Assembly: GCA_021734835.1 (NCBI GenBank)
Contig: JAIPIH010000001.1
Coordinates: forward strand, 248,001 to 312,000
DNA: 64,000 nucleotides
Direction of reading: 5' to 3'
Source of the DNA: Candidatus Cloacimonadota bacterium
GTDB lineage: Bacteria > Cloacimonadota > Cloacimonadia > Cloacimonadales > TCS61
Shown piece after piece: positions 18,294 to 37,123 of the stretch. The position numbers and the translations under genes are program-made. Each line of letters opens with the position of its first letter. Position 1 is the stretch's first letter. The notes below the pieces were generated by a model. That model was given only the letters and a program-made list of their open reading frames with translations, was not told the DNA's origin and made no database searches.

Positions 18294-20198
18294 TTATTTG
18301 ATTTGCGGTTCAATATAGCAGAGTATATCACCTTTCGACACAGAATCACCTGCTTTCTGATCAATAATTTTGATCAGTCCATCACAAGGTGCTCCCAAGT
18401 TGTTAAACATTTTCATTGCTTCTAAAACCACAACAGTTTCACCTTTTTTCACTTCATCTCCAACTTTTTTCTTATATTCAATGATCATACCGGGAATAGG
18501 AGCCAGCAAATTACTGCCTTTATCCGAGGAAGGTTTTGCCTCTTTCTTTTTAAAACTAAATCCCGTTTGCTTCATATGCTGATCAGCTACTTCAACGTTA
18601 AAATGTTCACCATCTACATAAATATCAAAAGATCTGGTGTTTGCCTTTTTGCTGTGTTTATCTGTTAATTTACCGTTCAGAGCTTTATCAACTAGTTGCT
18701 GTTCTTTTTCAACATCAGCCATTGTCTTGGGTTTTACTTCATCCGGTACTGCTTCGATCCCGTATTTCCAATTAAGGAATTTTCTTCCAGTTACAGGATA
18801 GAGGGCACATAAAACCAAGTCATCGAGATCTTTTGCTAAGTCTTTAAAATCTTTTTTAACTTTTGGAAGTTCAGGCTCAAGTATATCACCTGGTCGGCCT
18901 TTGATAGGAGTTTCGCCTCTTGGATAGTTCTTCAGAGCTTTCTTCTGAACCTTTTTATCGATTGGGTGAGTAGTTTTACCGTATAGACCATAACACAAAT
19001 CTTTTACCTGCTCCGTGATATTGGTGAATTCTTCCTCTTCATCGAATAATACGTTGTTTACGGTTTGGATACCGACAATTTGACTAGTCGGCGTAACAAG
19101 AGGAATTTGACCTAGTTTCTTGCGAACTTTTGGCAATTCTTCAAAGACCTCATCCAGTTTATCAAGAGCATCCATTTGACGTAATTGATTAACAAGATTG
19201 GAAAGCATACCACCCGGAGTTTGATGTAATATCACATTTGTATCAATTATAGCATTTTTAGTATCATTCAGAAGATGTTTATATTTCGGAATAACTTTTT
19301 CCATCTCTTTATCAATAGCTGCAAGTTTGTTGATATCCAGCCCACTATCGCGATTTGTACCTAAAAGTGATATCACTAATGGCTCTACCGCAGGATGAGA
19401 AGTACGATAAGCATAAGGAGCCATGCAAGTATCAATAATATCTACTCCTGCTTCAATAGCTTTGAAGAGTGTCAGATCACCCATTCCAGAAGTGAAATGA
19501 GTATGTAAATGAATTGGGATTTCGGTTTGTTTTTTCAGTGCTTTCACAAGATTATAAGCATCATAAGGTGCAATCAATCCGGCCATATCTTTGATGCAGA
19601 TAGTGTCTGCTCCCAGCTTTTCCAATTGCTTTGCTTTATCTAAGTAATAATCAAGATTATAAGTCTCACCACCCATTCGTGGCTCTGTAAGTGAGTAACA
19701 GATTGTACCTTCGAAATGTTTTTTATTTTTTTTAATAACTTTAATAACAGTTTGAAAATTACGAAAATCATTAAGAGCATCAAAAACTCGGAAAATATCG
19801 ATTCCGTTATCGCAGGCTCTCTGAACAAAAGCTTCCACAACGTCATCCGAGTAGTTTCTATATCCCACCAGATTTTGCCCTCGTAACAACATTGAGAACG
19901 GTGTCTTTTTAATGTGTTTTTTTAAAGTTCTGATTCTTTCCCAAGGATCTTCATTCAAAAAACGATGCATAGTATCAAAAGTGGCACCACCCCATACTTC
20001 CAACGAATAGAAACCAACTTCATCCAACATCTTGGCGATCGGCAACATATCTTCTGTTCTGCCTCTGGTCGCGAACAGGCTTTGATGACCATCGCGAAGA
20101 CTTACATCTTGTATTTTGATCGGATTTTTAGCTTTAGGGCGTTTAGGATCATAATTGATCTTTGTCATTTCCAAAACGCCATGTTTATCGTATGTCAT
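18294..20198 (-). CDS. oadA: Biotin-dependent pyruvate/oxaloacetate carboxyltransferase (OadA/5S-like) with biotinyl domain
   Basis: A 634-residue protein with a TIM-barrel carboxyltransferase (IQDVSLRDGHQSLFATR near 30; LHTHFTSGMGD, with His metal ligands; the TPGGMLSNLVNQL segment) and a C-terminal biotinyl domain with VLEAMKMFNN, whose Lys is biotinylated. It matches oxaloacetate decarboxylase alpha, pyruvate carboxylase subunit B and the 5S subunit of methylmalonyl-CoA:pyruvate transcarboxylase. A small subunit and an MmdA-like 12S homologue lie directly upstream, so a transcarboxylase-type complex moving CO2 between methylmalonyl-CoA and pyruvate/oxaloacetate is the best guess. A strong GGGGGAG site precedes the ATG. 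Confidence 0.88.
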   Translation of the reverse strand: MTYDKHGVLEMTKINYDPKRPKAKNPIKIQDVSLRDGHQSLFATRGRTEDMLPIAKMLDEVGFYSLEVWGGATFDTMHRFLNEDPWERIRTLKKHIKKTPFSMLLRGQNLVGYRNYSDDVVEAFVQRACDNGIDIFRVFDALNDFRNFQTVIKVIKKNKKHFEGTICYSLTEPRMGGETYNLDYYLDKAKQLEKLGADTICIKDMAGLIAPYDAYNLVKALKKQTEIPIHLHTHFTSGMGDLTLFKAIEAGVDIIDTCMAPYAYRTSHPAVEPLVISLLGTNRDSGLDINKLAAIDKEMEKVIPKYKHLLNDTKNAIIDTNVILHQTPGGMLSNLVNQLRQMDALDKLDEVFEELPKVRKKLGQIPLVTPTSQIVGIQTVNNVLFDEEEEFTNITEQVKDLCYGLYGKTTHPIDKKVQKKALKNYPRGETPIKGRPGDILEPELPKVKKDFKDLAKDLDDLVLCALYPVTGRKFLNWKYGIEAVPDEVKPKTMADVEKEQQLVDKALNGKLTDKHSKKANTRSFDIYVDGEHFNVEVADQHMKQTGFSFKKKEAKPSSDKGSNLLAPIPGMIIEYKKKVGDEVKKGETVVVLEAMKMFNNLGAPCDGLIKIIDQKAGDSVSKGDILCYIEPQIK

Positions 20199-20211
20199 TT
20201 ATCTCCCCCAA

Positions 20212-20379
20212 TTATCTCTTAAATTCTCTCATTTGGATCATAACATTATTAAGCATAGTATTTTTTCTACCGGAAAGAACCCATTTGTTAGGTTTTTCTT
20301 GTTGCTTTTCAGCATCTTCTTGTTGTATATACTGGATAACTCCGGCAATAGCAGCTTTAAGTTTGCGGTTTCTCGACAT
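20212..20379 (-). CDS. 55-residue carboxyltransferase small subunit (MmdE/OadG-tail-like)
   Basis: A small protein with its own AGGAG site seven bases before the ATG at 20379, lying between the MmdA-like gene (stop 11 bases downstream of this start, overlapping) and the OadA-like gene. It begins MSRNRKLKAAIAGVIQYIQ and later has a NKWVLSGRK turn and a basic end. The AAI-x-V-x-x-Y start and Trp-x(2-3)-Gly-Arg turn resemble the C-terminal tails of OadG/MmdD and the 55-residue MmdE subunit of Veillonella methylmalonyl-CoA decarboxylase, which stabilises the complex. Short length limits certainty, but the context and ribosome site make the gene real. Confidence 0.75.
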   Translation of the reverse strand: MSRNRKLKAAIAGVIQYIQQEDAEKQQEKPNKWVLSGRKNTMLNNVMIQMREFKR

Positions 20380-20389
20380 ATCAAATCTC

Positions 20390-21946
20390 CTAAACTGGTA
20401 TATTACCATGTTTTTTTGCTGGAAGAGCTTCTTTCTTAGTACTCATTATTTCTAAGGCATCGATCAGTCTTTGACGAGTTTCAGAAGGCTGGATCACTGC
20501 ATCAATATAACCTCGCTCTGCTGCAATGTATGGTGTGTTGAATTTTTGTTCATAATCTTTGATCTGTTCTTGCCTTTTTGATTCAGGATCAGTAGCTGCT
20601 TTTTGAGCTTTTCTATAACTGGAGACAACATTAACCGAACCTTTCGCTCCCATTACAGCAATTTCAGCCGAAGGCCAGGCAAAAGACATATCATTACCAA
20701 GATGTCTGGAACTCATAGCAATATAAGCTCCGCCGTAGCTCTTTCTGGTTGTTACATTCAGTTTTGGTACAGTTGCCTCGGAGTAACTCCAGAGTAATTT
20801 TGCTCCGTGTCGGATGATGCCATTCCATTCCTGTTCCTGTCCCGGTAAATATCCAGGAACATCTACAAAGGTTATCAAGGGTAGATTAAATGCATCACAG
20901 AAGCGGATGAAACGCGATATTTTATCAGAGGCATTGATGTCGAGACAACCGGATAAGACCAAGGGCTGATTTGCAATTATCCCAACCGACCGTCCATTCA
21001 AGCGAGCCATTCCTATAACTGCATTTTCAGCGTATAGTTCATGAATTTCAAAGAACTCTCCATGATCAACTATCGCCCGGATAACATCCTTCATATCATA
21101 ACCGGCTTTAGGATTGTCAGGAATAATACCATCAAGTTCTGGGCATTTTCTGGCAGGATCATCACCGATTTGCATTAAAGGCGGATCTTCCATATTATTG
21201 TTTGGAATATAACTCAAGAGCATTTTAACATGATCGATAGCATCTTCGTCGCTTTCACAGGCAAAATGGGCATTACCACTTTTAGTATTATGAGTAATTG
21301 CTCCTCCCAGCTCTTCGAATGTAGTTTCTTCACCTGTTACAGTTTTTATGACCTGCGGTCCCGTTATGAACATATGAGCTGTATTTTTTACCATCAGAAT
21401 AAAATCTGTCATTGCAGGCGAATAAACTGCGCCGCCCGCGCAGGGTCCCATGATGAGTGAGATCTGTGGAATTACACCAGAAGCTCTTGAATTACGGAAG
21501 AAAATATCTCCATATCCCTTTAAAGAATCTATTCCTTCATCTACCCGCGCACCGCCGCTATCATTCATTCCCACAATTGGAATACCTGCCTTTAAGGCCA
21601 TGTCCATTACTTTTGTGATCTTAGCCGCATGTTGTTCGCCGAGTGAACCACCCAGAGATGTGAAGTCTTGTGCATAGGCTACAACATGCCGGCCATTAAC
21701 TCTGCCGTGACCTGTTACAACACCATCAGCAGCTATCTCCGTAGAGGGCATATTAAAATTAGTTGAGCGATGTTTGACATGCATATCAATTTCGTGAAAT
21801 GTTCCCGCATCGAATAATAGTTCCAATCTTTCACGAGCGGATAACTTTTTTTTATTATGCTGCTTGGCAAGACGGGTCTTTCCCCCCATATCTTTTATCT
21901 TAGTTTCTCTTTTTTTTAATTCTTGTAATTTTTCGGAAATCGTCAT
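20390..21946 (-). CDS. Acyl-CoA carboxyltransferase (MmdA/PccB/12S-like), copy 1
   Basis: A 518-residue two-lobed crotonase-fold carboxyltransferase. It has KKLSARERLELLFD near the start, [14 protein letters not shown] (about 128-141), [16 protein letters not shown], and in the second lobe FVDVPGYLPGQEQEWNG and RKSYGGAYIAMSS. The end KHGNIPV is typical of MmdA, propionyl-CoA carboxylase beta and the transcarboxylase 12S subunit. It transfers CO2 between an acyl-CoA and enzyme-bound biotin. A second paralogue lies at 35345-36895. This copy sits with OadA-like and small subunits, suggesting the transcarboxylase role; the exact acyl-CoA is inferred. Confidence 0.9.
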   Translation of the reverse strand: MTISEKLQELKKRETKIKDMGGKTRLAKQHNKKKLSARERLELLFDAGTFHEIDMHVKHRSTNFNMPSTEIAADGVVTGHGRVNGRHVVAYAQDFTSLGGSLGEQHAAKITKVMDMALKAGIPIVGMNDSGGARVDEGIDSLKGYGDIFFRNSRASGVIPQISLIMGPCAGGAVYSPAMTDFILMVKNTAHMFITGPQVIKTVTGEETTFEELGGAITHNTKSGNAHFACESDEDAIDHVKMLLSYIPNNNMEDPPLMQIGDDPARKCPELDGIIPDNPKAGYDMKDVIRAIVDHGEFFEIHELYAENAVIGMARLNGRSVGIIANQPLVLSGCLDINASDKISRFIRFCDAFNLPLITFVDVPGYLPGQEQEWNGIIRHGAKLLWSYSEATVPKLNVTTRKSYGGAYIAMSSRHLGNDMSFAWPSAEIAVMGAKGSVNVVSSYRKAQKAATDPESKRQEQIKDYEQKFNTPYIAAERGYIDAVIQPSETRQRLIDALEIMSTKKEALPAKKHGNIPV

Positions 21947-22032: not shown

Positions 22033-23274
22033 TCATTCAGTTTTAAGTCTGGGTACTGAAATACGAGCATTATTGATCAGAGCTATTTTTGCATCTTTGC
22101 CTTTGATTTTGATAGCTTCATCAACAGCTATCTGCAAGGAATTGAAAGGTTCAATGAAAATTTTTCTAAGAACATCATCATCTATTTCACTAACTAACCA
22201 TAATTTATTTCTTCTCATGAAAGATACAAATTTCGCTGCTTTATGATATCCTAATTTATAGTTTTTCTCAACTTTTTGAAATACTTCTTCCGGTGAGTTA
22301 CAGGTTGCCATCAGATCATAAAAAGTTCTGTTGCCAATTCCCTGTTTACAGCGTGAAACCAGGATGAAGATACCACCATCATTAAGGATAGAATTACAAT
22401 TTTCAAGATCCTTTTGTGACTGATAAAGATCCAGGTCTAAAGGTGGTTGATCAATAGCAATTATTATATCAGCTTTTTGTTTCACTTCAGGAGAATATAC
22501 TTTCTTAACTTTTTTGGCTGCTGCTTTGAGCGTAGAATGAATATTTCCGCTGGTTGTAAAAAATATTTTATCTTCGCTATTGAGAACTGAGAGTAGGCAG
22601 AAAATATCAGTTTTTATCATTTTAACTGCCTCTGCCATATCCTCATGGATCGGATTCCCCTCTAATTTTAAAATTTGAGCTGATTTCTTTAAGGCAAGAG
22701 AATGATTTTTTTCTATTGTTTCAAAAGCTGCAATACCGGGAAGAAGACTTTTTCGTCCTCCTGTATAACCTGCGAAATAATGCGGTTCAACAGAACTGAT
22801 GATAATTATCCCATCTGCATTTTTTATTTCAGAGTTGAACTTTACCTTAGTACCTCGCGTTGTCTGTCCAAGTTCCAGCATGACGTCATTTTTTGCATCA
22901 TGGCAAATTATTCTATCCTTCAATAGAGGATAAAATGAACCAAAAATCCTGACAAATTCTTCTTCAGTTGGTTTTTTATGAGTACCCAATGCTACGATAA
23001 ATTTATAATCTTTGTTTTTCAGATACTCTTGGAGAGTGGCGATAACAAGTGAAGTAGGTGTATTTCTGGAACCATCGTTAACAATTATCAGGATTTTCTG
23101 CTTATCTTTTAAAAAAGTTTCCAGATCAACTGAGTCTAGAGGTGATGTTAAAGATTTGCGGATCAGATCTTCCTGATTGAAAACAGGCACTTCTTTGAAA
23201 GTAATTATTTCAACCTGATCAGAAGGAATTTGCAATTCAACCTGCTGATTATCCAGTTTTATTTTATAATTCAT
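22033..23274 (-). CDS. LarA-like nickel-dependent lactate racemase family protein
   Basis: A 413-residue homologue of LarA (DUF2088 family), which racemises lactate or other 2-hydroxyacids with a nickel-pincer nucleotide cofactor. The cofactor-site residues known from Lactobacillus LarA appear to be kept: NDGSR (67-70, Asp-x-x-Arg), GTHKKPTEEE with His99, EPHYFAGYTGGRKSLLPGI with His165 and Lys175, and His191. Spacing His165-Lys175-His191 equals that of LarA His174-Lys184-His200. The cofactor-making genes larB, larC and larE are not in the window. The substrate is unknown, as paralogues act on several 2-hydroxyacids. Confidence 0.87.
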   Translation of the reverse strand: MNYKIKLDNQQVELQIPSDQVEIITFKEVPVFNQEDLIRKSLTSPLDSVDLETFLKDKQKILIIVNDGSRNTPTSLVIATLQEYLKNKDYKFIVALGTHKKPTEEEFVRIFGSFYPLLKDRIICHDAKNDVMLELGQTTRGTKVKFNSEIKNADGIIIISSVEPHYFAGYTGGRKSLLPGIAAFETIEKNHSLALKKSAQILKLEGNPIHEDMAEAVKMIKTDIFCLLSVLNSEDKIFFTTSGNIHSTLKAAAKKVKKVYSPEVKQKADIIIAIDQPPLDLDLYQSQKDLENCNSILNDGGIFILVSRCKQGIGNRTFYDLMATCNSPEEVFQKVEKNYKLGYHKAAKFVSFMRRNKLWLVSEIDDDVLRKIFIEPFNSLQIAVDEAIKIKGKDAKIALINNARISVPRLKTE

Positions 23275-24449: not shown

Positions 24450-25607
24450 TTAAATAAAAAATTCCTTTAATTTACTGAAGAAACTTTTGTCCGGATTTAA
24501 TTTTTTTTCTGAATCGTATATTGATAATTTGTTTAAGAGGCCTTTCTCATCAGAATTAAGTTTTGTGGGTGTGATCACCCGAACTTTGATGAATAGATCT
24601 CCGTGATAGGAAGAGTTTACATGGGGAAGACCTTGAGAACGTAAGCGGAATATTTTACCAGATTGTGTTCCGGCAGGAATTTTCATTTTAACTTTTCCGG
24701 AAAGTGTAGGTACTTTAATTTCAGAACCTAAAGCTGCTTGTGAAAAACTTATTGGGAATTCGCAGATCAGGTCAGCGTTACGACGCTCAAAAATATTATG
24801 TTCTTTTTCCTGGATATGAACCAGGATATCGCCATGTTCACCACCGCGTTTTCCGATGTTACCCTGACCACGAAGTCTGATATATTGTCCTTCAGCAACT
24901 CCGTGTGGAATTTTAATACTAATTGTCTTGGCTTTTTTATTTCTGCCAGTTCCCCGGCATTTTGGGCAACGGTTTTTAATAATTTTACCCTGTCCATGAC
25001 AAGAAGGGCATTCCACAATAGTTTGCATTTGTCCAAATAATGATCTTGTAGTCTGACGTACCTGACCTGAGCCCTGGCATTGACCGCAGGTTTCCACAGA
25101 ACCGTCTTGTGAACCGGAACCTTTACATTCCTCACAGGTATCATGAATATTTATTTTGATCTTTTTACTAATTCCTTTTGAGATCTCCTCAAGTGTAAGT
25201 GAAAGTGATATCTGCAGATCTTCACCACGGTTGTTTGGTCTGCGGGATCTTCCACCACCGCCGAATCCTGAACCGAAGAGTCCTTCAAATATGCTACCCA
25301 GTCCGCCGCCGCCAAAGATGTCGGAAAAATCGGAGGCGTGAGTAAAATTTTCCCAGGTGAAACCGTGACCACCAAAAGCACCTTCTAATCCGGCATGTCC
25401 GTATTGATCATATTTCTGTTTTTTAGTTGGATCGCTTAAAACTTCATAAGCTTCCGAAGCTTCTTTGAAACTTTCTTCTGCAACTTTGTTTTCCGGATTT
25501 TTATCGGGATGAAATTTCATCGCCAATTTGCGGTATGCTTTTTTGATTTCTGTCTGGTTGGCATTTTTATCAATACCCAGAACTTCGTAGTAATCTCTTT
25601 TAGCCAT
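24450..25607 (-). CDS. dnaJ: Chaperone DnaJ
   Basis: A full 385-residue type I DnaJ. The J domain (1-70) has the HPD tripeptide in [11 protein letters not shown] Gly/Phe-rich linker follows, then four zinc-finger CxxCxGxG repeats: [24 protein letters not shown] and CPKCRGTG. The C-terminal substrate-binding and dimerisation domains complete it. It stimulates DnaK ATPase and delivers unfolded clients. It is the last gene of the heat-shock operon, about 80 bases downstream of dnaK, and is followed by a clear terminator. Confidence 0.98.
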
Positions 25608-25687: not shown

Positions 25688-27670
25688 TTATTTCTCATCA
25701 TCATCTACAACTTCATAATCAGCATCCACAGGGCTATCTTCTTCTTCATTGCTTTTCGGTTGTTGTTTTTGACCGCCCATTTTACCCGGATCAAATTCGG
25801 CATTTCCCATATTAGGATCAGTTCCACCCTGACCTTGTTGTTTTTGCATTTCAGCATAAACAATCTCGCCGATCTTTTGAGCTTTCTTAGCAAGTTCATC
25901 ACGGGCAGCTTCATATTCTTCTTTAGAAGCTTGTTTTTTATTTAGTTCTTCCAGTTTACTTTTAGCTTCCTTGATTGCATCTTCTACAGTTTTCTTCTCA
26001 TCACCCTTTAATTTATCTGAATGTTCTTCCATGCTTTTTTCTGTGGAGAAGATCAGAGTATCTAACTCGTTGCGAGCATTAATTGACTCTTTGGTCTTTT
26101 TATCGTCATCAGCATGAGCTTCAGCATCTTTAACCATTCTCTCGATTTCACTTTCATCCAGCGATCCAGTACGTTCAATCTTTATAGACTGCTCTTTTCC
26201 TGTACCTTTATCTTTGGCAGAAACATGCAGGATCCCGTTAGCATCTATATCAAAAGTAACTTCAATTTGTGGAACTCCACGCGGTGCTGCCGGTATTCCG
26301 GTAAGCTCAAAATTTCCAAGCCTTCTGTTATCTGTAGCCATTGAGCGCTCACCCTGTAATACAACAATAGATACAGCAGGTTGATTATCTGATGCAGTTG
26401 AAAATACCTGACTCTTCTTAGTCGGAATAGTTGTATTTCTTTCGATCAATGAAGTCATCACACCACCTAGAGTTTCAATACCCAGGGAGAGAGGAGTAAC
26501 ATCCAGAAGCAGAATATCGTTAAGGTTTTCATCACCAGAAAGAATTCCGCCTTGGATGCCTGCGCCAACTGCAACGACTTCGTCCGGATTCACACTTTTA
26601 TTGGCTTTTTTGCCGAAGAATTTTTCAATAGCTTCTATTACCGCAGGCACTCTTGTACTTCCACCTACAACTAATATTTCATCAATATCTTTTGCTGTTA
26701 ATTTAGCATCTTTAAGGGCAATTTTACATGGATCGATAGAACGAGCGATAAGATCGCCTACCATTCTATTGAATTGAGAAAGAGACAGATCGAGATTCAA
26801 ATGTTTAGGTCCGGAAGCATCAGCCGTAATGAATGGCAGGTTGATGTTTGTAGTCTGAGTTCCGGATAGTTCTATCTTGGCTTTTTCAGCAGCCTCTTTT
26901 ATCCTCTGCAGCGCCATAGCGTCACTGGCAAGGTCGACCCCTTCCTGTTTTTTGAATTCACTCAAAATCCAATCCATGATTTTTTTATCAAAGTCATCTC
27001 CACCAAGATGTGTGTCGCCATTTGTAGAAAGAACTTCTACAACGCCTTCAGCAACTTCCAGAATTGAGATATCAAAGGTTCCACCACCTAAATCGTAAAC
27101 TGCAACTTTTTCTTCTTTTTTATTATCAAGTCCGTAAGCCAGAGCAGCAGCAGTTGGTTCATTAATAATTCTTTTTACTTCCAGTCCGGCAATTTTACCA
27201 GCATCTTTAGTTGCCTGTCTCTGAGCATCATTGAAATATGCAGGTACAGTTATCACAGCTTCAGTAATTTTTGTTCCTAAATGGGATTCTGCAGTCTCTT
27301 TCATTTTTGTAAGTATCATGGCAGAGATTTCTTGAGGTGTGAAATCTTTGTTTTCTACGTCGATATGGACTGTAGCTTCACCAAATTTACCACCTTTAAC
27401 CTGATAATTCACATTTTTAATCTCAGATTCTACTTCATTAAGCTGTCTTCCCATAAATCTCTTGATTGATGAGACAGTATTCTTCGGATTAGTTACAGCT
27501 TGTCGTTTTGCAACCTGCCCGACCAATCTTTGCTTGTCTTTTGTAAATGCAACTACAGACGGGGTAGTTCTAGATCCTTCAGCGTTTTGGATTACGGTTG
27601 GTTTTCCACCTTCCATAACGCTAACGCAGGAGTTTGTTGTTCCAAGGTCAATACCAATTATTTTACCCAT
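25688..27670 (-). CDS. dnaK: Chaperone DnaK (Hsp70)
   Basis: A 660-residue Hsp70. The start is the ATG at 27670, five bases after a GGAGG site; the frame extends four codons further without support. The ATPase domain has [27 protein letters not shown] and [10 protein letters not shown]. The interdomain linker [14 protein letters not shown] leads to the peptide-binding domain, and the lid ends in an acidic, disordered tail ([13 protein letters not shown]). It binds and releases unfolded proteins with DnaJ and GrpE. It lies between grpE (15 bases) and dnaJ, downstream of two CIRCE-like sites. Confidence 0.98.
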
Positions 27671-27684
27671 AATATCCTCCAATA

Positions 27685-28245
27685 TTATTTATTTTTATTT
27701 TTCTTTTTTAGTTTTGTTTCCTCAGGTTTTTCTCCATTGGAAACAGCGACGCGTGCCGGTCTAATGACTTTAGAGTTCATTTTATAGCCATTTTGGATGA
27801 CAGCAGCGACTTTATTTTCTTTCAGATCAGATGGGATATGAGCCAGAGCTTCATGCAGCTGCGGATCAAATTCCTTACCAATAGCATCGATCTTTTCCAC
27901 ACCTTCTTTTTTCAGAACTCCATCCAGTTGTTGGAAAATGAGATCAATTCCCTTTTCATATGATTCCCGATTTTTTTCTACTTCCGGATGCAGTGCACGT
28001 TCAAAATTGTCTAGCACATCGCATAGTTCCAGGACTATTCTTTCAGTTGCATTTTTGATCCAGGCAGATTTTTCGGTACTGCTTCTACGTCTGAAATTTT
28101 CAAATTCAGCTGCATTTCTGATCCATTTGTCCTTCAACGCAGCATTTTCAGTCTGAAGTTTTTCGTATTTTTCTTCTAAAGTAATGACTTTTTCCTTTTT
28201 TTCGTTTTTACTTTCAGTTTCTTTTTTCGTTGTTTTTTTGGTCAT
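27685..28245 (-). CDS. grpE: Nucleotide exchange factor GrpE
   Basis: A 186-residue GrpE. It has a lysine/glutamate-rich N-terminal arm, a long coiled coil ([25 protein letters not shown]) and the C-terminal beta-wing with [13 protein letters not shown] and [20 protein letters not shown], the family signature. It releases ADP from DnaK and acts as a thermosensor in some bacteria. Its ATG overlaps the hrcA stop in an ATGA arrangement, so the two genes are translationally coupled. The very lysine-rich end (KLKKKNKNK) is unusual but short. Confidence 0.96.
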
Positions 28246-29288
28246 TTTTTAGTTACCACCATTCCTTTTTTTGTGGTTTCAGTTATCATTTCAGCAATAT
28301 CCCGAATGATCGCGATATTTTTTTTATAATCCATTCTGGTAGGTCCCAGAACTCCCAAGAACCCCGGAATTCCGAAGATCTGATATTTGGCAAAGATCAA
28401 GGCATAATTAGCTAATTCAGTTTGAGCCAGATCCTCACCCATTAAAATATTGTAGTTGTTATCATTGTTTTTTTGCATGAGGTTTATCAGATAATCTTGT
28501 CTCTGCATAAAGTTCAAAAATGATAAAATCTCTTTTTTATCGTTGAATTCAGGTTGCTCAAGAAATGAGATGTTACCATCAAAATGAATATAATAACTAC
28601 TAATCTCAGAAAAAGCATTTTGCAGTTCTTCCAAGAATTGTTTTAATATGATATTCTCTTCTGTAACTTTCTCGGCAATTTCGTCGATTACCGTATTCTG
28701 AATATCGAAAATGCGCTGCCCAACCAAAGAATCATTAATATAACGGACAATTGCCTTCAATTGAAAAAGTGAAATATTATGATCACATTTTAAAATCACT
28801 GTTTTATCGAGACCTGAATCCAGACTTACAACAAAAAGTAATTTATCCTGAGAAATTTTAAAGACTTCAAGATGTTCCAAATATCCGTAAGATATTTCAG
28901 GTTCTGCTACGAAACTCAACTGATCTGTTTCACGAGCAAGCAATTGCATAATGTAATGAAGTGCTAACGGAATATCTTTATAATATTTTATTAGAATATC
29001 CCGCAGGATATTCAAATTACTGAATTTTTGTTCTGATTCCTGGCCGAGGCTTTCTTTAATATAATTTCTATAACCCTGAATCGTTGGTATTCTGCCGGCA
29101 GAAGTATGAGGTTGATAGATCAAATTTGATTTCTCAAGTTTATTCATATCTATCCGTATAGTCGCAGGGCTGGCATTTTCAATGTATTTATCGCTTATCA
29201 GTTTTGAGGATATCGGCTCACATGAGCTGATATATTCTTCCACTACATGTTTCAGAACCTGCTTTCTGCGCAACTCATTCTTCTTCAT
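28242..29288 (-). CDS. hrcA: Heat-inducible transcription repressor HrcA
   Basis: A 348-residue HrcA with an N-terminal winged helix (RRKQVLKHVVEEYISS, ASPATIRIDMNKLEKSNLI, then HTSAGRIPTIQGYRNYI), a central GAF-like dimerisation domain and a C-terminal GPTRMDYKKNIAIIRDIAE segment. HrcA binds CIRCE inverted repeats and is kept active by GroE. I start at the second Met (29288), which gives the usual MKKNELRRKQVL N-terminus. Two CIRCE-like sites lie upstream, so it represses its own operon. It leads hrcA-grpE-dnaK-dnaJ. Confidence 0.96.
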   Translation of the reverse strand: MKKNELRRKQVLKHVVEEYISSCEPISSKLISDKYIENASPATIRIDMNKLEKSNLIYQPHTSAGRIPTIQGYRNYIKESLGQESEQKFSNLNILRDILIKYYKDIPLALHYIMQLLARETDQLSFVAEPEISYGYLEHLEVFKISQDKLLFVVSLDSGLDKTVILKCDHNISLFQLKAIVRYINDSLVGQRIFDIQNTVIDEIAEKVTEENIILKQFLEELQNAFSEISSYYIHFDGNISFLEQPEFNDKKEILSFLNFMQRQDYLINLMQKNNDNNYNILMGEDLAQTELANYALIFAKYQIFGIPGFLGVLGPTRMDYKKNIAIIRDIAEMITETTKKGMVVTKK

Positions 29289-29306
29289 ATTTAACCTCAA
29301 TTTTTT

Positions 29307-29333
29307 TTAGCACTTTTTCTTGCTAATTGCTAA
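29307..29333. promoter_or_regulatory. CIRCE-like operator, downstream copy
   Basis: Left arm TTAGCACTT (29307-29315), a 9-base spacer and right arm AATTGCTAA (29325-29333). The left arm differs from the CIRCE consensus TTAGCACTC at one position; the right arm matches seven of nine positions of GAGTGCTAA. It lies between the predicted promoter and the hrcA start, in the 5' leader. Confidence 0.6.
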
Positions 29334-29341
29334 CTGATGAC

Positions 29342-29369
29342 AAATTAATTTGGAATAATCAAATGTCAA
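29342..29369 (-). promoter_or_regulatory. Candidate promoter of hrcA-grpE-dnaK-dnaJ
   Basis: On the minus strand TTGACA (29364-29369), a 16-base spacer and TAATTT (29342-29347). It is bracketed by the two CIRCE-like sites. Confidence 0.55.
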
Positions 29370-29377
29370 ATAAATTT

Positions 29378-29404
29378 TTAGCAGACAAAGCAAGGGAGTG
29401 CTAA
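29378..29404. promoter_or_regulatory. CIRCE-like operator, upstream copy
   Basis: Left arm TTAGCAGAC (29378-29386), a 9-base spacer and a perfect right arm GAGTGCTAA (29396-29404). The left arm keeps seven of nine consensus bases. It ends 8 bases before the -35 element on the minus strand. Confidence 0.7.
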
Positions 29405-29575: not shown

Positions 29576-30607
29576 ATGAAAATAGTAAAAAAGATTTTAT
29601 TTTTTATATCGCTCTTTCTGCTCTACATAATAATCCGAGAATTTATTGATCTATATACTTCCATACAGAATATAAACATATATGCTGGTTATGGTTTTCT
29701 TATAGTACTAGCATCAGTTACAATCTACTTTGTGATAATTCCGATATTCAAAATTATTAGGATCCCCAGAAATTACGGACCAGCTCGAAGTTTGGAAACG
29801 GAAAAGAGTTTGATCTCTAAAAGAATGATCAAATTCAGGAATAACAAATTTCTTCTGGAAAGCGGTTTCGATTTTTCTGAACTTGATGATAGTAAAGAAT
29901 CCTACTTAAAAATTGTCAAAGTGTTGGAAAAAGAAGTAGATAAAATTCGCCGTAGACATGTTTCGCAACTTTTTTATAGTACAAGCATTGCTCAGAACGG
30001 ATTTTTGGATGCACTCTTCATATTATCTGCCAGTATTAACCACATCAAAGAAATATTTATATTATACAATGGCAGAGTATCCAATCGTGATCTGCTGACG
30101 ATTGCTAAAAAAGTATATTATTCCATGGCGATTGGAGGATCGGAAGGTGCAGAATATGCTACTGAAGAGGTTTTCTCCAAGCTGGCAACTGATAGTTTAA
30201 AAAGTATTCCGTTCATCGACAAGATCCTTTCATCAATTGTGGACGGACTTGTTAACGCAACATTATTGACCAGGATATCCTTTATTACAGAAAATTATTG
30301 TAAGCTCACTTATCTAAAATCGGATAGAGATATATATCCTTCTCCTGCCTTTGTAATAAATTCAGCAAAAAATATAACGGCAGATATGGTTGAGAGAACC
30401 TTTAAATCTATCCGAAAGATGACATTTGAGAAATCAGTGAATTTTGCCTTAGTAGCCGCCAATCCGATAGGTTATGTATTAGGGAAGACAATTGATCGAT
30501 CTGGTAAATTTGAAGCTGAAAAAAAAGAAAAGTTGAAAGAACACGCCAAATTAGTAGGAAATCCATTGATATTTGGTTTAGAAAAATTAATTAAAAGTTT
30601 AAGGTAG
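29576..30607 (+). CDS. DUF697-like membrane protein
   Basis: A 343-residue protein with two N-terminal membrane helices (about 5-20 and 38-58), a charged cytoplasmic middle part and a C-terminal half rich in Gly/Ser/Ala with AKKVYYSMAIGGSEGAEYA, SIPFIDKILSSIVDGLVNA and LLTRISFITENYCKLTY. This resembles the DUF697/YcjF-type domain, usually found near or fused to small GTPases. No GTPase domain is visible in it or beside it, and the function is unknown. A GGGGAATTT site precedes the ATG. It diverges from the heat-shock operon, with the two start sites about 290 bases apart. Confidence 0.6.
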   Translation: MKIVKKILFFISLFLLYIIIREFIDLYTSIQNINIYAGYGFLIVLASVTIYFVIIPIFKIIRIPRNYGPARSLETEKSLISKRMIKFRNNKFLLESGFDFSELDDSKESYLKIVKVLEKEVDKIRRRHVSQLFYSTSIAQNGFLDALFILSASINHIKEIFILYNGRVSNRDLLTIAKKVYYSMAIGGSEGAEYATEEVFSKLATDSLKSIPFIDKILSSIVDGLVNATLLTRISFITENYCKLTYLKSDRDIYPSPAFVINSAKNITADMVERTFKSIRKMTFEKSVNFALVAANPIGYVLGKTIDRSGKFEAEKKEKLKEHAKLVGNPLIFGLEKLIKSLR

Positions 30608-30687: not shown

Positions 30688-33054
30688 TTATTTATTTTTA
30701 ACGAATTTATCAAACCATTCAATCATTTCAGCCAGGACATGCAAGCCGGATTCTCTAGCTCTGTAGGAATGTCCTTCGAAAGGCATGATAACTAATTTAG
30801 CTGTACCGCTGTTACCTTGAAGAGCTTGAAAGAAGCGTATTGACTGCATCGGATATGTTCCTGCATTCGGGTCGTCATCTCCGTGGATCAGAAGTATAGG
30901 TTCAGTTATTTTTTCAGCATGAGCGAATGGAGAGACCTCCAGATAAAATTCTTTAGCCTCCCAAAAAGTCCGTCTTTCATTCTGAAATCCGAAGGGTGTA
31001 AGAGTGCGATTATAAGCACCGCTTCTGGCAATGCCGGCAGTGCAAATGTTGCTGTGTGCCAGTACATTAGCCACCATAAACGCGCCATAACTGTGACCTG
31101 TGATCCCGACTCTGTCAGGATCTATTATTCCCCTTGAATTAAGATAGTCAATCGCAGCCTGAACACTGTTCACAGTTTGTTCTATAAATGTTTCGTTAAC
31201 AGTTTCCGGATCACCAACAATGGGAATTGATGCTTTTGTGAGAACTGCATAACCCAGTAAGGCAAAATAGCGGATAGAAGCACCTCTGAATCTGTTGAAT
31301 TTATTGGAAGTTGTTTTTACTTGACCGGCAGTGGTGCTGTCGGCATATTCCTGAGGGTAAGCATTGAATACAAGCGGAAGTTTGGCACCTTCTTTAAAAT
31401 CAGCTGGCAGATAAAGCTCGCCTGAAAGCGGAATCCCGTCTTTTCGTGTAAAAGTGATCATTTCTTTTTTCAATTCTGTGAGTTGTGTAAAATTATTGGG
31501 ATAATCCGTAATTGCCGAGTATTGTTTTGTTTTGAGGTCTACAAAGAAATAATTCGGTGGTTCTTTCTGAGATTGACTACGAATAATAATTTTATTAAGA
31601 TTTTTATCTACGAAATTTTTCATAGTTTCGTGATGATCCTCACGACAGCGAAAGAGAATTTCAATCTGTTTTGTGATCAGATTGAATTTTGATAGAAATG
31701 GATAGTTTCCTTGCGGAGTAGCGCCAAGATCATTCTGATAGAAAATCCAATCTCCATCTTTGATAAATACGTTTCCCCCATTGTTAGTTTTTTTCAGCAC
31801 TAACTTACCCGGATGATTATATACGTCGCGCTTGCTGAGACCATGGATAAGAACCGGAGCTTTCCCTTTCTGACATAACCAGCCTTTTTCCCATAATCTA
31901 TCACGATCATATTCATAATAGATAAACTCATCTTCATCCTGAGACCAAGTAATAGAAGAAAAGCGATGTTCAATTTTAAGCAACTCTTTGGGAGAAGCTG
32001 TTCCTGGAAAATTCTGCTGCATGATCTTATCACGGTATTCTGCTATTATTTTCGGATCACCATTATCTAAGGCTTCCACCCAAATAAGTGATGCTGCTTT
32101 AAGCGGTTGCCATTCGAAACTTCTCGGTCCGATTACTCTACCACCCATGGGGATTTCATCTTGTAAAGGACGTGAATGCAGCAGGTGAATCAACTTTCCG
32201 GTTTTATTTAACACCTGATATTCTTTGGCAAAACGATAATAGGGCAACATATATGAATATGGACGATGTATTCGTTCTACCAGCAGATATTCATTATCCG
32301 GTGAAAGTTTTACATCTTCGTAAATGCCAATATCGCCAACTTTTATTAATTTGCCCGTCTGGGTATCTAAAATTACCAGTTGCGAAGTAAAATAATAATC
32401 AAACAGTTTTTCATCATAAACATTAGTTAACAGATGCTGATAAGTGAGAGAGGTATTTTTTTTGCCATAATTTTCTTCAATTATCGGAGTTTCAGGGACA
32501 ATTGGTTTTGCCGGCTCCTGTTTGCGTTTTTTATTTATTATCTTTAGTAAAATACTATTATTATCATTCAACCAGCAGATAATGCCATCTTTCCACATAT
32601 CATTGATAAAAAAACCTGATTGAACTTTACATATACCTGTTTCCAGATCTGCTATGAGCAATTGCACGCCGTTAATAGTTTCATTCAATAAAGCAAGTTT
32701 TTTATTATCCTTGGAAATTTTTATTTTTCTTATCTTTGCATCTGCGGGAAGATCCAGAGACAAACGGTTTTTTGTTGTGAGATTCAATATGTTAATTCCG
32801 GTAATGGGATACGAATCCAAAGGAGCATTTAACCTTTTTGAGAATTTTTTTCCTGCCAATTTTAAGGAAGGATCACTTAATTGTTGAAGATTTTGATGTA
32901 ATTGATAAGTCATCTCAAGTCCAAAATTCTCAAACTGCACAAATTTGATATATGGGTTACCAAGTGTATCATAAATATCAACAATATTTTTAGCAGGTAG
33001 TTTATACGAAGTTTGCGCATTTAACATTAACAGTGCCCCCGATAAAATAATCAT
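30688..33054 (-). CDS. Secreted S9-family serine peptidase (acyl-aminoacyl/dipeptidyl peptidase type)
   Basis: A 788-residue prolyl-oligopeptidase-type enzyme. The N-terminal part forms a beta-propeller-like region with repeated TGKLIKVGDIGIYEDVKLSPD blocks. The C-terminal alpha/beta hydrolase has GITGHSYGAFM (nucleophile Ser), LLIHGDDDPNAG (Asp) and PFEGHSYRARE (His). A short hydrophobic leader ending LMLNAQTS looks like a signal peptide. The start is uncertain: the ATG at 33054 has no ribosome site, while open codons upstream (from 33093) would add the usual Lys-rich signal-peptide start but lack a standard initiation codon. It likely degrades peptides in the periplasm or outside the cell. 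Confidence 0.88.
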   Translation of the reverse strand: MIILSGALLMLNAQTSYKLPAKNIVDIYDTLGNPYIKFVQFENFGLEMTYQLHQNLQQLSDPSLKLAGKKFSKRLNAPLDSYPITGINILNLTTKNRLSLDLPADAKIRKIKISKDNKKLALLNETINGVQLLIADLETGICKVQSGFFINDMWKDGIICWLNDNNSILLKIINKKRKQEPAKPIVPETPIIEENYGKKNTSLTYQHLLTNVYDEKLFDYYFTSQLVILDTQTGKLIKVGDIGIYEDVKLSPDNEYLLVERIHRPYSYMLPYYRFAKEYQVLNKTGKLIHLLHSRPLQDEIPMGGRVIGPRSFEWQPLKAASLIWVEALDNGDPKIIAEYRDKIMQQNFPGTASPKELLKIEHRFSSITWSQDEDEFIYYEYDRDRLWEKGWLCQKGKAPVLIHGLSKRDVYNHPGKLVLKKTNNGGNVFIKDGDWIFYQNDLGATPQGNYPFLSKFNLITKQIEILFRCREDHHETMKNFVDKNLNKIIIRSQSQKEPPNYFFVDLKTKQYSAITDYPNNFTQLTELKKEMITFTRKDGIPLSGELYLPADFKEGAKLPLVFNAYPQEYADSTTAGQVKTTSNKFNRFRGASIRYFALLGYAVLTKASIPIVGDPETVNETFIEQTVNSVQAAIDYLNSRGIIDPDRVGITGHSYGAFMVANVLAHSNICTAGIARSGAYNRTLTPFGFQNERRTFWEAKEFYLEVSPFAHAEKITEPILLIHGDDDPNAGTYPMQSIRFFQALQGNSGTAKLVIMPFEGHSYRARESGLHVLAEMIEWFDKFVKNK

Positions 33055-33172: not shown

Positions 33173-34318
33173 TTAATTACCTAAAATCCCCAGCAGAACA
33201 CCTGCAGCAACGGCAGAACCAATCACGCCGGCAACGTTAGGTGCCATGGCATGCATGAGAAGAAAATTACTGCGATCATATTTTTGTCCCATAGCATGTA
33301 CCACTCGTGCACTGTCAGGAACTGCACTTACTCCTGAAGCTCCTATCATTGGATTTAATTTATCTTTCAGGAATAAATTCATAACTTTAGCAAAAATAAC
33401 ACCAGTTGCAGTTGCAATTGCAAACGAAAATGCTCCCAAAGCAAATATCTTGATCGAACTGGCTGTAAGAAAGCCCATATTTACACCGTTCACCATTCTA
33501 ATCGCTTGGGTTGAAGCGCCAACACAAAGACCTAAAACTATTGTAATAATGTCTATAAGTGAATTGGAAGCAGTTCTGGCTAAACGTTCTGTAACACCGC
33601 TCTCTTTAAGCAGGTTACCAAAAAAAAGCATTCCCAAAAGTGATGATGCACCCGGAGCGATGAGGATAGTTACCAGAGCAGCAATAATAGGAAAAAGTAT
33701 TTTCTCGCGTTTTTTAACTATACGGGAAGTTTTCATACGGATGAGTCGCTCTTTTTTAGTAGTTAGCAGTTTAATGATAGGTGGCTGAATAACCGGAACA
33801 AGAGCCATATAGGAATAAGCTGCTATTGCGATGGGACCAAGCAGATGTGGAGCAAGTTTGGTAGACAAGAATATCGAAGTAGGCCCGTCAGCTCCACCGA
33901 TAATACCAATAGCACCTGATTCCAAGACGTTGAATCCCAGCAGTAAAGAGCCAATAAAAGTTGCAAATATTCCGAATTGTGCTGCTGCCCCGAGTAAGAT
34001 CAATTTAGGGTTAGCTATCAAAGTTGAAAAATCTGTCATTGCACCTATCCCGAGGAATATAAGAGGAGGATATAATCCGAATTTTACACCTGTATAAAGT
34101 TGATTCATCACAGAGCCTGTGGAATAAACTCCATAAATTTCTGTTCCGGGTAGATTTCCTAAGATAACTCCAAAACCAATTGGGATTAGGAGTAATGGCT
34201 CATAATGTTTAGTAATTCCCAGATAAATGAAAATACTGCCAATTATGATCATGATCAAATAGGGAATTTGCAGTTGCGCCAGACCTGTAGTACCGAAAAA
34301 ATGTAGAAATTCTGTCAT
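33173..34318 (-). CDS. mmdB: Sodium-translocating decarboxylase beta subunit
   Basis: A 381-residue membrane subunit of biotin-dependent sodium pumps (MmdB/OadB/GcdB). It contains GIIGGADGPTSIFLSTKLAP with the key Asp of the cation channel, a second region with GASGVSAVPDSARVVH, and GLYPPLIFLGIGAMTDFS near residue 80. It decarboxylates carboxybiotin and couples this to Na+ export. Its ATG overlaps the stop of the biotin carrier gene by 4 bases. Together with mmdA, mmdD and mmdC upstream it makes a complete pump. Substrate assignment to methylmalonyl-CoA rests on the MmdA-like alpha subunit. Confidence 0.95.
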   Translation of the reverse strand: MTEFLHFFGTTGLAQLQIPYLIMIIIGSIFIYLGITKHYEPLLLIPIGFGVILGNLPGTEIYGVYSTGSVMNQLYTGVKFGLYPPLIFLGIGAMTDFSTLIANPKLILLGAAAQFGIFATFIGSLLLGFNVLESGAIGIIGGADGPTSIFLSTKLAPHLLGPIAIAAYSYMALVPVIQPPIIKLLTTKKERLIRMKTSRIVKKREKILFPIIAALVTILIAPGASSLLGMLFFGNLLKESGVTERLARTASNSLIDIITIVLGLCVGASTQAIRMVNGVNMGFLTASSIKIFALGAFSFAIATATGVIFAKVMNLFLKDKLNPMIGASGVSAVPDSARVVHAMGQKYDRSNFLLMHAMAPNVAGVIGSAVAAGVLLGILGN

Positions 34319-34752
34319 GCTTTAGACTCTCCTATTTCCATGAGTATTTGACCTTCCTGCACAGAATCTCCTTCCTTCACATGCAATCTTTTCACAACTC
34401 CGTCAGCATTAGAAGTGATTTCGGATTCCATTTTCATTGCTTCTAAGATCAGCACCGGATCGTCAACTTTAACTGATTCTCCCTCATTAACCAATAAGCG
34501 AAGAACAAGACCCGGGATAGGAGCTGAGATGTTTCCTTGAGCAGTCATGGGAGATTTTGTTTTTGAACTTACCGCATCCAGAACAGGTTTAATTTTTTCC
34601 TCACGCTCTATTTCCGGTTTACGGCGCTCGGTCTTCTCTAGCTCTATCTCATAATCAATACCATTAACTTCAACTATGATTTCAAATTGCTTATACTTTT
34701 TTATTTTAGCTACATATTCTTCATTGTTGATCTTCATTTTATAGGTTTTCAT
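34315..34752 (-). CDS. mmdC: Biotin carboxyl carrier protein of the decarboxylase
   Basis: A 145-residue carrier with an N-terminal beta segment, a flexible charged linker (about 45-70) and a C-terminal biotinyl domain with ILEAMKMESEI, whose Lys carries biotin. It shuttles CO2 from the carboxyltransferase (MmdA) to the membrane subunit (MmdB). The linker is richer in Glu/Lys than the Ala/Pro linkers of many MmdC proteins. It overlaps both neighbours by 4 bases, so it is translated together with them. Confidence 0.93.
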   Translation of the reverse strand: MKTYKMKINNEEYVAKIKKYKQFEIIVEVNGIDYEIELEKTERRKPEIEREEKIKPVLDAVSSKTKSPMTAQGNISAPIPGLVLRLLVNEGESVKVDDPVLILEAMKMESEITSNADGVVKRLHVKEGDSVQEGQILMEIGESKA

Positions 34753-35336
34753 CTATTACCTCGGATATCACTTCTCTCTGTTAAATATTTGTTTTCCATC
34801 ATTGCTGCTGATCGCCACAAACTTACTGAATCTCGTTTCCAAGTAAGTTCAATATTATTTTTTGCTTCAGCATCGTGAAGATACATTGCTGTGATGGCTG
34901 CAATTATCTCTTTGCTATCGAAATCTCGCCGCAAAGCTGAAACTTTTCCATGCGAAGTTTTTAGGGAAATTATCTTCTTTTTTTTATGGATGCCAATATG
35001 CTGTAAGGAAGAAATAATGATACCAACTATTATTAAACTTAAGAATACAATTCCCATACCGACAAAAATTATTCCGGAATAAAACGAACTCTTCTTCTGA
35101 TTATAATTATCAACTGCTGTTTTGATTTCGGTGCTGGAAATTCCCAATTCTGCAAGGTGGATATCATAAGATGGAATATTCTCCAGCTCAAGGAGTTGAA
35201 CCATTTTTTTAACCGGAATATTATACTTTACAGCTAATTCAGCGATTGTAGTTTCCCCAGTAATTTCTACTTGCTGCTGTGTTGCAAACCCCAAAGTATA
35301 AAACAAGCATAATATTAAAATAAATAAATTTTTCAT
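34749..35336 (-). CDS. mmdD: Decarboxylase gamma/delta subunit (OadG/MmdD-like) with N-terminal extension
   Basis: A 195-residue protein. A hydrophobic leader (about 1-18) is followed by a soluble stretch (20-82) with GETTIAELAVKYNIPVKKMV, then the single membrane helix expected for OadG/MmdD (about 87-112), a basic cluster HKKKK and a C-terminal tail with IIAAITAMYLHDAEAKN and a Trp/Arg segment. OadG-type subunits anchor the carboxyltransferase to the membrane pump. The extra N-terminal domain and leader place residues 20-82 outside the membrane, which is unusual because OadG normally begins at the membrane helix. It overlaps mmdC by 4 bases. Confidence 0.8.
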   Translation of the reverse strand: MKNLFILILCLFYTLGFATQQQVEITGETTIAELAVKYNIPVKKMVQLLELENIPSYDIHLAELGISSTEIKTAVDNYNQKKSSFYSGIIFVGMGIVFLSLIIVGIIISSLQHIGIHKKKKIISLKTSHGKVSALRRDFDSKEIIAAITAMYLHDAEAKNNIELTWKRDSVSLWRSAAMMENKYLTERSDIRGNR

Positions 35337-35344
35337 TTGTTATC

Positions 35345-36895
35345 CTAAAGTGGTATATTACCGTGTTTTTTAGGCGGATTTGAAACACGTTTTGTTGCCA
35401 GCATCTCGAGTGAGCGAATAATACGGAATCTTGTTTGGGCGGGTTCGATGACATCATCTATATAACCTTTTTTTGCAGCCACATACGGATTTGCAAATTT
35501 ATCCCGATATTCTTTTTCTTTTTCGGCAGTAATTTTTTGTGGATTTTCAGCTTGAGCTACTTCTTTACGGAAGACTATCTCAACAGCACCTTTCGGACCC
35601 ATAACAGCAATTTCGGCAGTAGGCCAGGCATAAACAATATCAGCGCCCATACTACTGCTGTTCATTACGCAATACGCACCACCGTATGCTTTGCGCGTTA
35701 TCACTGTTATTTTAGGAACTGTTGCCTCGGCAAATGCATAGAGCAGCTTCGCACCATGGCGGATTATACCGTTTTGCTCCTGATTGCTGCCGGGTAAAAA
35801 ACCGGGAACATCTTCCAAAGCTACTAGAGGAATATTGAACGAATCACAGAAACGAACAAAACGCGCAGCTTTGATAGAAGCATTAATGTCCAGAACCCCG
35901 GCCAAAACTTTAGGTTGATTGGCAACAATACCTACACTGTGACCATTCAATCTGGCAAATCCCACTATAATATTCTGGGCAAAGTTGCGTGAGGTTTCTA
36001 AAAATTCTTTATTATCCACAATACTGGTTATAACATCCAAAACATCATAGGGTTTATTGGGATTTTCAGGAATTAATGAATTGAGCTCTTCGCAGTATCT
36101 GTCGATGTGATCATTGGGAGCTATATAAGGAGGCGTTTCCATATTATTGGAGGGTAGATAGCTTATCAGGCGCTGGATCAAAAAAAGTGTCTCTTCTTCA
36201 TTTTTACTCATATAATGAGCTACACCGCTTTTACTAACGTGCATCTTCGCTCCACCCAGTTCCTGAGTGCTGATATCTTCATTGAGCACAGTTTTAACTA
36301 CTTTAGGTCCCGTTACGAACATATAGCTTGTTTCATTGTTCATAAAAATAAAGTCGGTGATGGCTGGAGAATAAACAGCGCCGCCCGCGCAAGGACCCAT
36401 AATTGCAGTTATCTGTGGAATTACTCCGGAGGCTCTCACATTGCGTAAAAATATTTCGGCATAACCGGCAAGCGCATCAACACCTTCCTGGACCCGGGCA
36501 CCTCCGGAATCGTTTAAACCAATGATTGGAGCGCCTATTTTCATCGCCATATCCATAACTTTACATATTTTCTCGGAATGAGTTTTGGAAAGTGATCCGC
36601 CGGTTACAGTAAAATCCTGAGCATAGACATACACAATTTTCCCATTGATCGTAGCACAACCAGTTACGACTCCATCACCCATTATCGCAGGTTTTTTATC
36701 CATCCCAAAATCTTTACAGCGGTGTTCGATGAACATATCGAATTCTTCAAAACTATCTTCATCAACTAATATTCTTATTCTTTCCCGGGCTGTAAGCTTA
36801 CCTTTGGAATGCTGAGCTTTAATTTTTTTCTCACCACCCCCGAGTTTTGCTTTTTCCTGTTTTTCCCGCAATTCAGCGATCTTATCCTGTTCCAT
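35345..36895 (-). CDS. mmdA: Methylmalonyl-CoA decarboxylase alpha / carboxyltransferase (MmdA/PccB-like), copy 2
   Basis: A 516-residue acyl-CoA carboxyltransferase with [48 protein letters not shown] and, in the second lobe, [18 protein letters not shown] and [13 protein letters not shown]. The start at 36895 follows GGAG by 6 bases; the frame is open to 36961. Beside mmdD, mmdC and mmdB this is the alpha subunit that moves the carboxyl group of (S)-methylmalonyl-CoA to biotin. It is clearly related to, but distinct from, the copy at 20390-21946. Confidence 0.92.
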
Positions 36896-37123
36896 TATAC
36901 TCTCCATGCTCAATCTAATATTATTTGCTAACCTACATAATAGTAATTGAATAATAGTCAATCTTAATTAAGAAAACACGGATGAAGAAATTTGATAAAA
37001 CCCTTTTCAAGTCAGCAAAACCTAAAGAAAAATTATTATTCTTGACGGAATTAAGATAAATTCCAGTTTTTAGAATGCTAAATAAAAAACAAAAATTTTC
37101 AAATTAATATTAAGGTGAAGAGA

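Follow-up and report, generated by a model that had tools for sequence, protein, structure and literature searches.

Why should a chaperone operon carry two imperfect copies of one operator-like repeat, one on each side of a single promoter, and how might the second copy have arisen? The question is raised by a 64 kb stretch of Candidatus Cloacimonadota DNA (hereafter the window) on contig C53; the genome measures 2.67 Mb and is 86.85% complete. Its minus strand carries, in this order, hrcA (28242..29288), grpE (27685..28245), dnaK (25688..27682) and dnaJ (24450..25607), the proteins of the last three being identified in this analysis, and sites resembling CIRCE, the operator of the repressor HrcA, precede these chaperone genes. 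HrcA and CIRCE form a widespread heat-shock switch, according to the available part of one paper (PMC8762339). The hrcA product scores 238 bits against NCBIfam TIGR00331 (cut-off 197), so that the genome encodes HrcA, and its top two named matches are Candidatus Cloacimonadota MAGs at 72 and 70% identity. The open frame of hrcA begins with TTG at 29300, but the ATG at 29288 is the more likely start, judging from the MKKN common to most relatives. No CtsR was found in this genome at its 86.85% completeness, and none of its matches to the sigma-32 model reaches the cut-off, which is what other sigma factors would be expected to give. A lactate-racemase-like gene (22033-23274; Lar_N, LarA_C) lies near the operon, and two gene sets on either side of the operon (18294-21946 and 33173-36961) resemble, by eye, parts of a biotin-dependent carboxyltransferase or decarboxylase.

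Read on the hrcA strand, the distal dyad (29404-29378) is TTAGCACTC-CCTTGCTTT-GTCTGCTAA, with a perfect left arm and a right arm bearing two mismatches, while the proximal dyad (29333-29307) is TTAGCAATT-AGCAAGAAA-AAGTGCTAA, with two mismatches in one arm, one in the other, and both outer six-base cores perfect. Against the CIRCE consensus of HrcA, TTAGCACTC-N9-GAGTGCTAA, the distal site therefore has two mismatches and the proximal three; the 9-9-9 architecture is that of the known operator, as is its location at hrcA-grpE-dnaK-dnaJ, the first gene of which encodes HrcA, but here the site is doubled, with both copies imperfect, the first lying ahead of the −35 box and the second at the start. 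Between them lie, on the same strand, a −35 box TTGACA (29369-29364), a spacer of 16 and a −10 box TAATTT (29347-29342), followed by GTC (29339-29341). TAATTT fits TATAAT at only three of six positions and a generic promoter scan does not list this promoter; it is called here because TTGACA and the TAnnTTGTC that follows it are conserved in relatives. The distal dyad is complete and, on the upstream side, stops 8 bp short of the −35 box. We infer a transcription start at about 29335; counted from there, the distal dyad would occupy about −69 to −43, and the proximal dyad would extend over start and leader from about +3 to +29. The dyad centers are 71 bp apart. A scan for CIRCE with up to three mismatches returned these two dyads and nothing else in the 64 kb, and nothing in 100 dinucleotide shuffles; the initial annotation had described two 9-9-9 repeats flanking a TTGACA-16-TAATTT promoter of this operon, and both were found at the positions it gave. 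In the whole 2.67 Mb genome the scan found five places including these two, against one for the reversed control pattern.

Comparison within the genus covered nine genomes, this one and eight relatives, anchored on TTGACA (a tenth, G009, gave no hrcA match). All six bases of the −35 box are invariant, as are 18 of 18 bases in the arms of the distal dyad and 12 of 12 in the cores of the proximal one, while the spacers are invariant at one of nine and none of nine positions, respectively; in the upstream flank one of 40 far bases and two of 15 near ones are invariant. The second repeat, like the first, is thus conserved, and the earlier proposal that two CIRCE-like operators bracket one promoter is supported by sequence, position and conservation alike. 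The accompanying description of a different degenerate arm in each copy was right only in part: the distal GTCTGCTAA is invariant in the genus and is therefore a fixed variant of the arm. The invariant outer core, TTAGCA-N15-TGCTAA, agrees with the reduced consensus TAGCA-N15-TGCTAA that the available part of PMC8762339 credits to De Barsy 2016. Proximal sites in the genus relatives carry three to six mismatches (three in the window), and wherever a proximal site was found in the genus the distance between centers is exactly 71 bp.

Beyond the genus, the position of the distal arm proved to take one of two values. An HrcA similarity search of 60 genomes (own included) gave matches in 57, at 58 places; once three places had been set aside (C-terminal parts alone in G046 and G048, and an additional, distant copy in G037), 55 promoters remained, own included, to which 35 were added because they matched a distal-arm/promoter pattern with an allowed gap of 9-30. 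The left arm stands either 11 bp or 25-27 bp from TTGACA, and no other distance was seen. The longer distance, with a complete or nearly complete dyad as in the window, occurs in 19 promoters (18 from the set of 55, one from the added 35; in L029 and L036 the left arm carries two mismatches). The shorter, with a distal half-site, occurs in 69 (35 from the first set, 34 from the second; L039, L050, L059 and L064 have two or three left-arm mismatches) and is exactly 11 bp in every one, a value not imposed by the search, since the pattern allowed gaps of 9-30. Altogether, 53 of the 55 promoters found through HrcA have a complete or half distal dyad at one of the fixed distances. L063 lacks TTGACA and has two degenerate dyads 57 bp apart, and L027 (a promoter of the window's family, in G023, a genome 61% complete) retains TTGACA and TTGTC, with both CIRCEs gone. 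Four of the 55 (L021, L027, L035 and L040) have a broken proximal site or lack it altogether.

Because the half-site stands exactly 11 bp from TTGACA, the −35 box itself occupies the position of the second arm, giving the composite TTAGCA(C/G)TC-N9-G(A/T)TTGACAA. On one reading of its origin, taken up below, repressor and sigma factor would read the same bases, and HrcA would compete directly for the −35 box. The pattern with the 9-30 gap matched 81 of 124 phylum genomes, against three for its reverse; G106, one of the 81, looks like a chance match, as do additional hits in G074 and G091. The composite, sought with no proximal site required, gave 65 matches in 63 of the 124 genomes and none when reversed; by coordinates, 63 of the 65 are known hrcA promoters, G014:C203 repeats the same bases at a contig end, and G052:C320 stays outside the 63. 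The base two before TTGACA is G in 17 of 17 half-site promoters of the window's family versus five of 19 complete-dyad promoters (Fisher p 3e-6, uncorrected for kinship and with few independent contrasts), which is suggestive of G as a mark of the shared arm. In the second, distant HrcA copy (L066, G037:C61; 28% identity), which belongs to another lineage and is transferred or contaminating, a perfect CIRCE encloses TTGAC.

Elsewhere in this genome, at genes named by eye, CIRCEs stand singly. The one at htpG (L001) immediately precedes TTGACA, that at groEL (L002) follows TTGACA, and a third (L004) has hsp20 on one side and a nitroreductase gene on the other. The positions seen at htpG and groEL indicate that each of the two positions at hrcA is also used singly. 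A CIRCE core followed by TTGACA at 5-13 bp is present in 31 of 40 family genomes and in none when reversed; the 30 such loci examined comprise 12 at htpG, nine at hrcA, eight between hsp20 and a nitroreductase gene or clpB, and one near hsp20 alone. The short core pattern was found in at least 58 of 60 genomes, versus two for its reverse, among the matches listed. A further inverted repeat, GACAA...TTGTC, spans the hrcA promoter itself (29339-29369; TTGACA-N16-TAnnTTGTC) and is conserved in the order. In this genome the same element also directly precedes the tmRNA gene (L068 857-887). It has matches in 38 of 40 family genomes, about 100 in the family versus about 20 for the reversed control, which in the own genome alone has two as well. 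The conservation of this repeat, and its survival in L027 where both CIRCEs are gone, brought up the idea of a second regulator reading it; its recurrence upstream of the tmRNA gene and across the family makes that less likely, although the matches of the reversed control detract from this argument, and the repeat is probably a feature of the promoter.

These arrangements suggest a model in which two HrcA operators block an autoregulated hrcA-grpE-dnaK-dnaJ promoter from both sides, a reading that we consider likely. At normal temperature, one HrcA dimer would occupy the stretch immediately before the −35 box (about −69 to −43), crowding that box and the region of the alpha subunit, and a second, at about +3 to +29, would bind start and leader and so cover the start; each would exclude RNA polymerase. 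Heat would leave HrcA inactive and both sites would be released. In the window's lineage the upstream site, being nearer consensus, is probably the stronger of the two, and two imperfect sites could sum to firm but graded repression; such graded or dual repression, which the initial annotation had also raised, is plausible and is the form of control we favor. Two sites cannot always be needed, since the proximal one is missing in some relatives, and sites with mismatches, the proximal one included, may go unbound by HrcA. By the limit applied in another phylum, to Mycoplasma gallisepticum, where the available part of the source accepts a CIRCE as functional only up to two mutations (PMC5138195), the distal dyad has two and the proximal three.

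The sister families f12 and f13 bear on the origin of the second site and on the most serious alternative. From their 18 genomes 12 were searched and ten had HrcA; all ten hrcA promoters have one proximal CIRCE with zero to two mismatches, and no second dyad with up to six mismatches was found in the 260 bases examined in each, where two stray arm-like 9-mers, with two mismatches apiece, lie beyond 200 bases. All 19 promoters of the 25-27 bp type fall within the window's family, and the TTGACA promoters of other families are all of the 11 bp type. One proximal CIRCE in the sister families and a half-site across the order suggest that this order probably acquired the second operator, which in the lineage of the window grew into a full dyad beside a weaker proximal one. 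Operator turnover would carry this further: in the lineage of the window, repression would fall to the distal dyad alone, the older proximal site weakening with its core under weak selection. Besides the sister-family promoters, such turnover would account for the family genomes in which the proximal site is absent or broken (G027, G033 and G035), and for proximal mismatches in the family having a median of four beside a complete distal dyad (n=19) versus two beside a half-site (n=17; Mann-Whitney p 8e-5, uncorrected for kinship). However, 12 of 12 invariant core bases around a spacer with none of nine, as seen in the nine genus genomes, is not what decay predicts, and too few independent changes underlie the mismatch contrast. 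On a tree of 45 HrcA proteins six changes of layout are required, two of them forced by supported branches; with only two supported independent pairs the contrast cannot reach 0.05. A trade-off between distal and proximal sites is suggested, not proven. We therefore regard repression by the distal dyad alone as unlikely, though the strongest of the alternatives.

The simplest reading of the order of events, by our inference, runs from a proximal operator to a half-site sharing the −35 box and then to a complete dyad further upstream in parts of the family. More specifically, the second operator may have arisen with a true CIRCE outer arm and the promoter's −35 box as its inner arm; in part of the window's family the outer arm would later have come to lie 14-16 bp further upstream, completing the dyad and freeing the −35 box, while the proximal site weakened and in a few was lost. 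To this detailed course we give an even chance.

Looping, which the initial annotation had offered as one possible use of two sites, would have HrcA at both sites join and bend the promoter into a closed loop. Placement on either side of the promoter and centers exactly 71 bp apart wherever the genus shows a proximal site would suit it, but a constant 71 bp also follows from fixed promoter geometry, and across lineages the centers are 55-58 bp apart in 69 promoters and 70-74 bp in 16, so that helical phase is not kept. A loop of about 71 bp is stiff. Among solved structures, a search by sequence found a single HrcA, 1STZ. Looping is accordingly disfavored, and we hold it to be very improbable.

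Upstream, a divergent open reading frame (29576-30607) starts 172 bp beyond the distal dyad. It is membrane-protein-like, with a DUF697 match below the Pfam cut-off, and compared with the genus relatives it is inserted between hrcA and a peptidase gene (30688-33054). Near hrcA, a homologue was seen outside the own genome only in G016, G032 and G023, many other loci having no more than 500 bases upstream, too short to exclude one, and none was found in the roughly 1.5 kb upstream of hrcA in the eight genus relatives. In six of these eight the nearest listed upstream frame on the hrcA strand resembles, by eye, the peptidase gene; L018 has another divergent frame and L019 none listed. That the distal dyad serves the divergent gene rather than hrcA, as its location between the two genes might suggest, is hardly credible and is rejected, because all eight relatives keep the dyad with no homologue of that gene in the roughly 1.5 kb upstream, and its left arm stands 25-27 bp from the TTGACA of hrcA in 19 of 19.

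Repression of hrcA from both sides thus remains the favored reading, and parts of it have parallels. In the available portions of the papers concerned, two CIRCEs stand at the promoter of Lactobacillus plantarum hrcA, likewise a chaperone operon and with no half-site sharing the −35 box mentioned there (PMC3842655), and at that of Lactococcus lactis dnaK (PMC1676014); in L. lactis, one arm change raised groESL expression more than twofold (PMC4585701). As far as the available text describes it, Myxococcus xanthus likewise has doubled sites, at groESL1, and a CIRCE overlapping the −35 region, at groEL2, but differs in that one of the two groESL1 sites is not bound (PMC9040617). Spiroplasma melliferum dnaK and clpB also have two copies, more mutated, with one repeat spoiled, which the accessible part of that study takes as decaying (PMC5138195), whereas the arms and cores studied here do not vary within the genus. 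HrcA of Campylobacter jejuni covers 30-40 bp over the start, according to the part available (PMC7464140). No literature joining Cloacimonetes or Cloacimonadota with CIRCE or HrcA was found, nor any joining Cloacimonadota with a promoter, sigma factor or transcription start, in searches confined largely to freely available papers.

Doubled CIRCEs were therefore already known, and in the literature covered here they are mentioned in passing; what is new is the conserved bracketing, the half-site that shares the −35 box, and a site that has probably moved from one place at the promoter to another. Related lineages offer comparable states: a proximal site alone, a proximal site with a half-site sharing the −35 box, a bracketing pair, and, in a few, a lost proximal site. 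With several promoter states at hand, the movement of a repressor site without loss of control becomes testable, as does the question whether two imperfect operators equal one good one. If the proposed history is true, living lineages would record the stepwise migration of a repressor site across a promoter.
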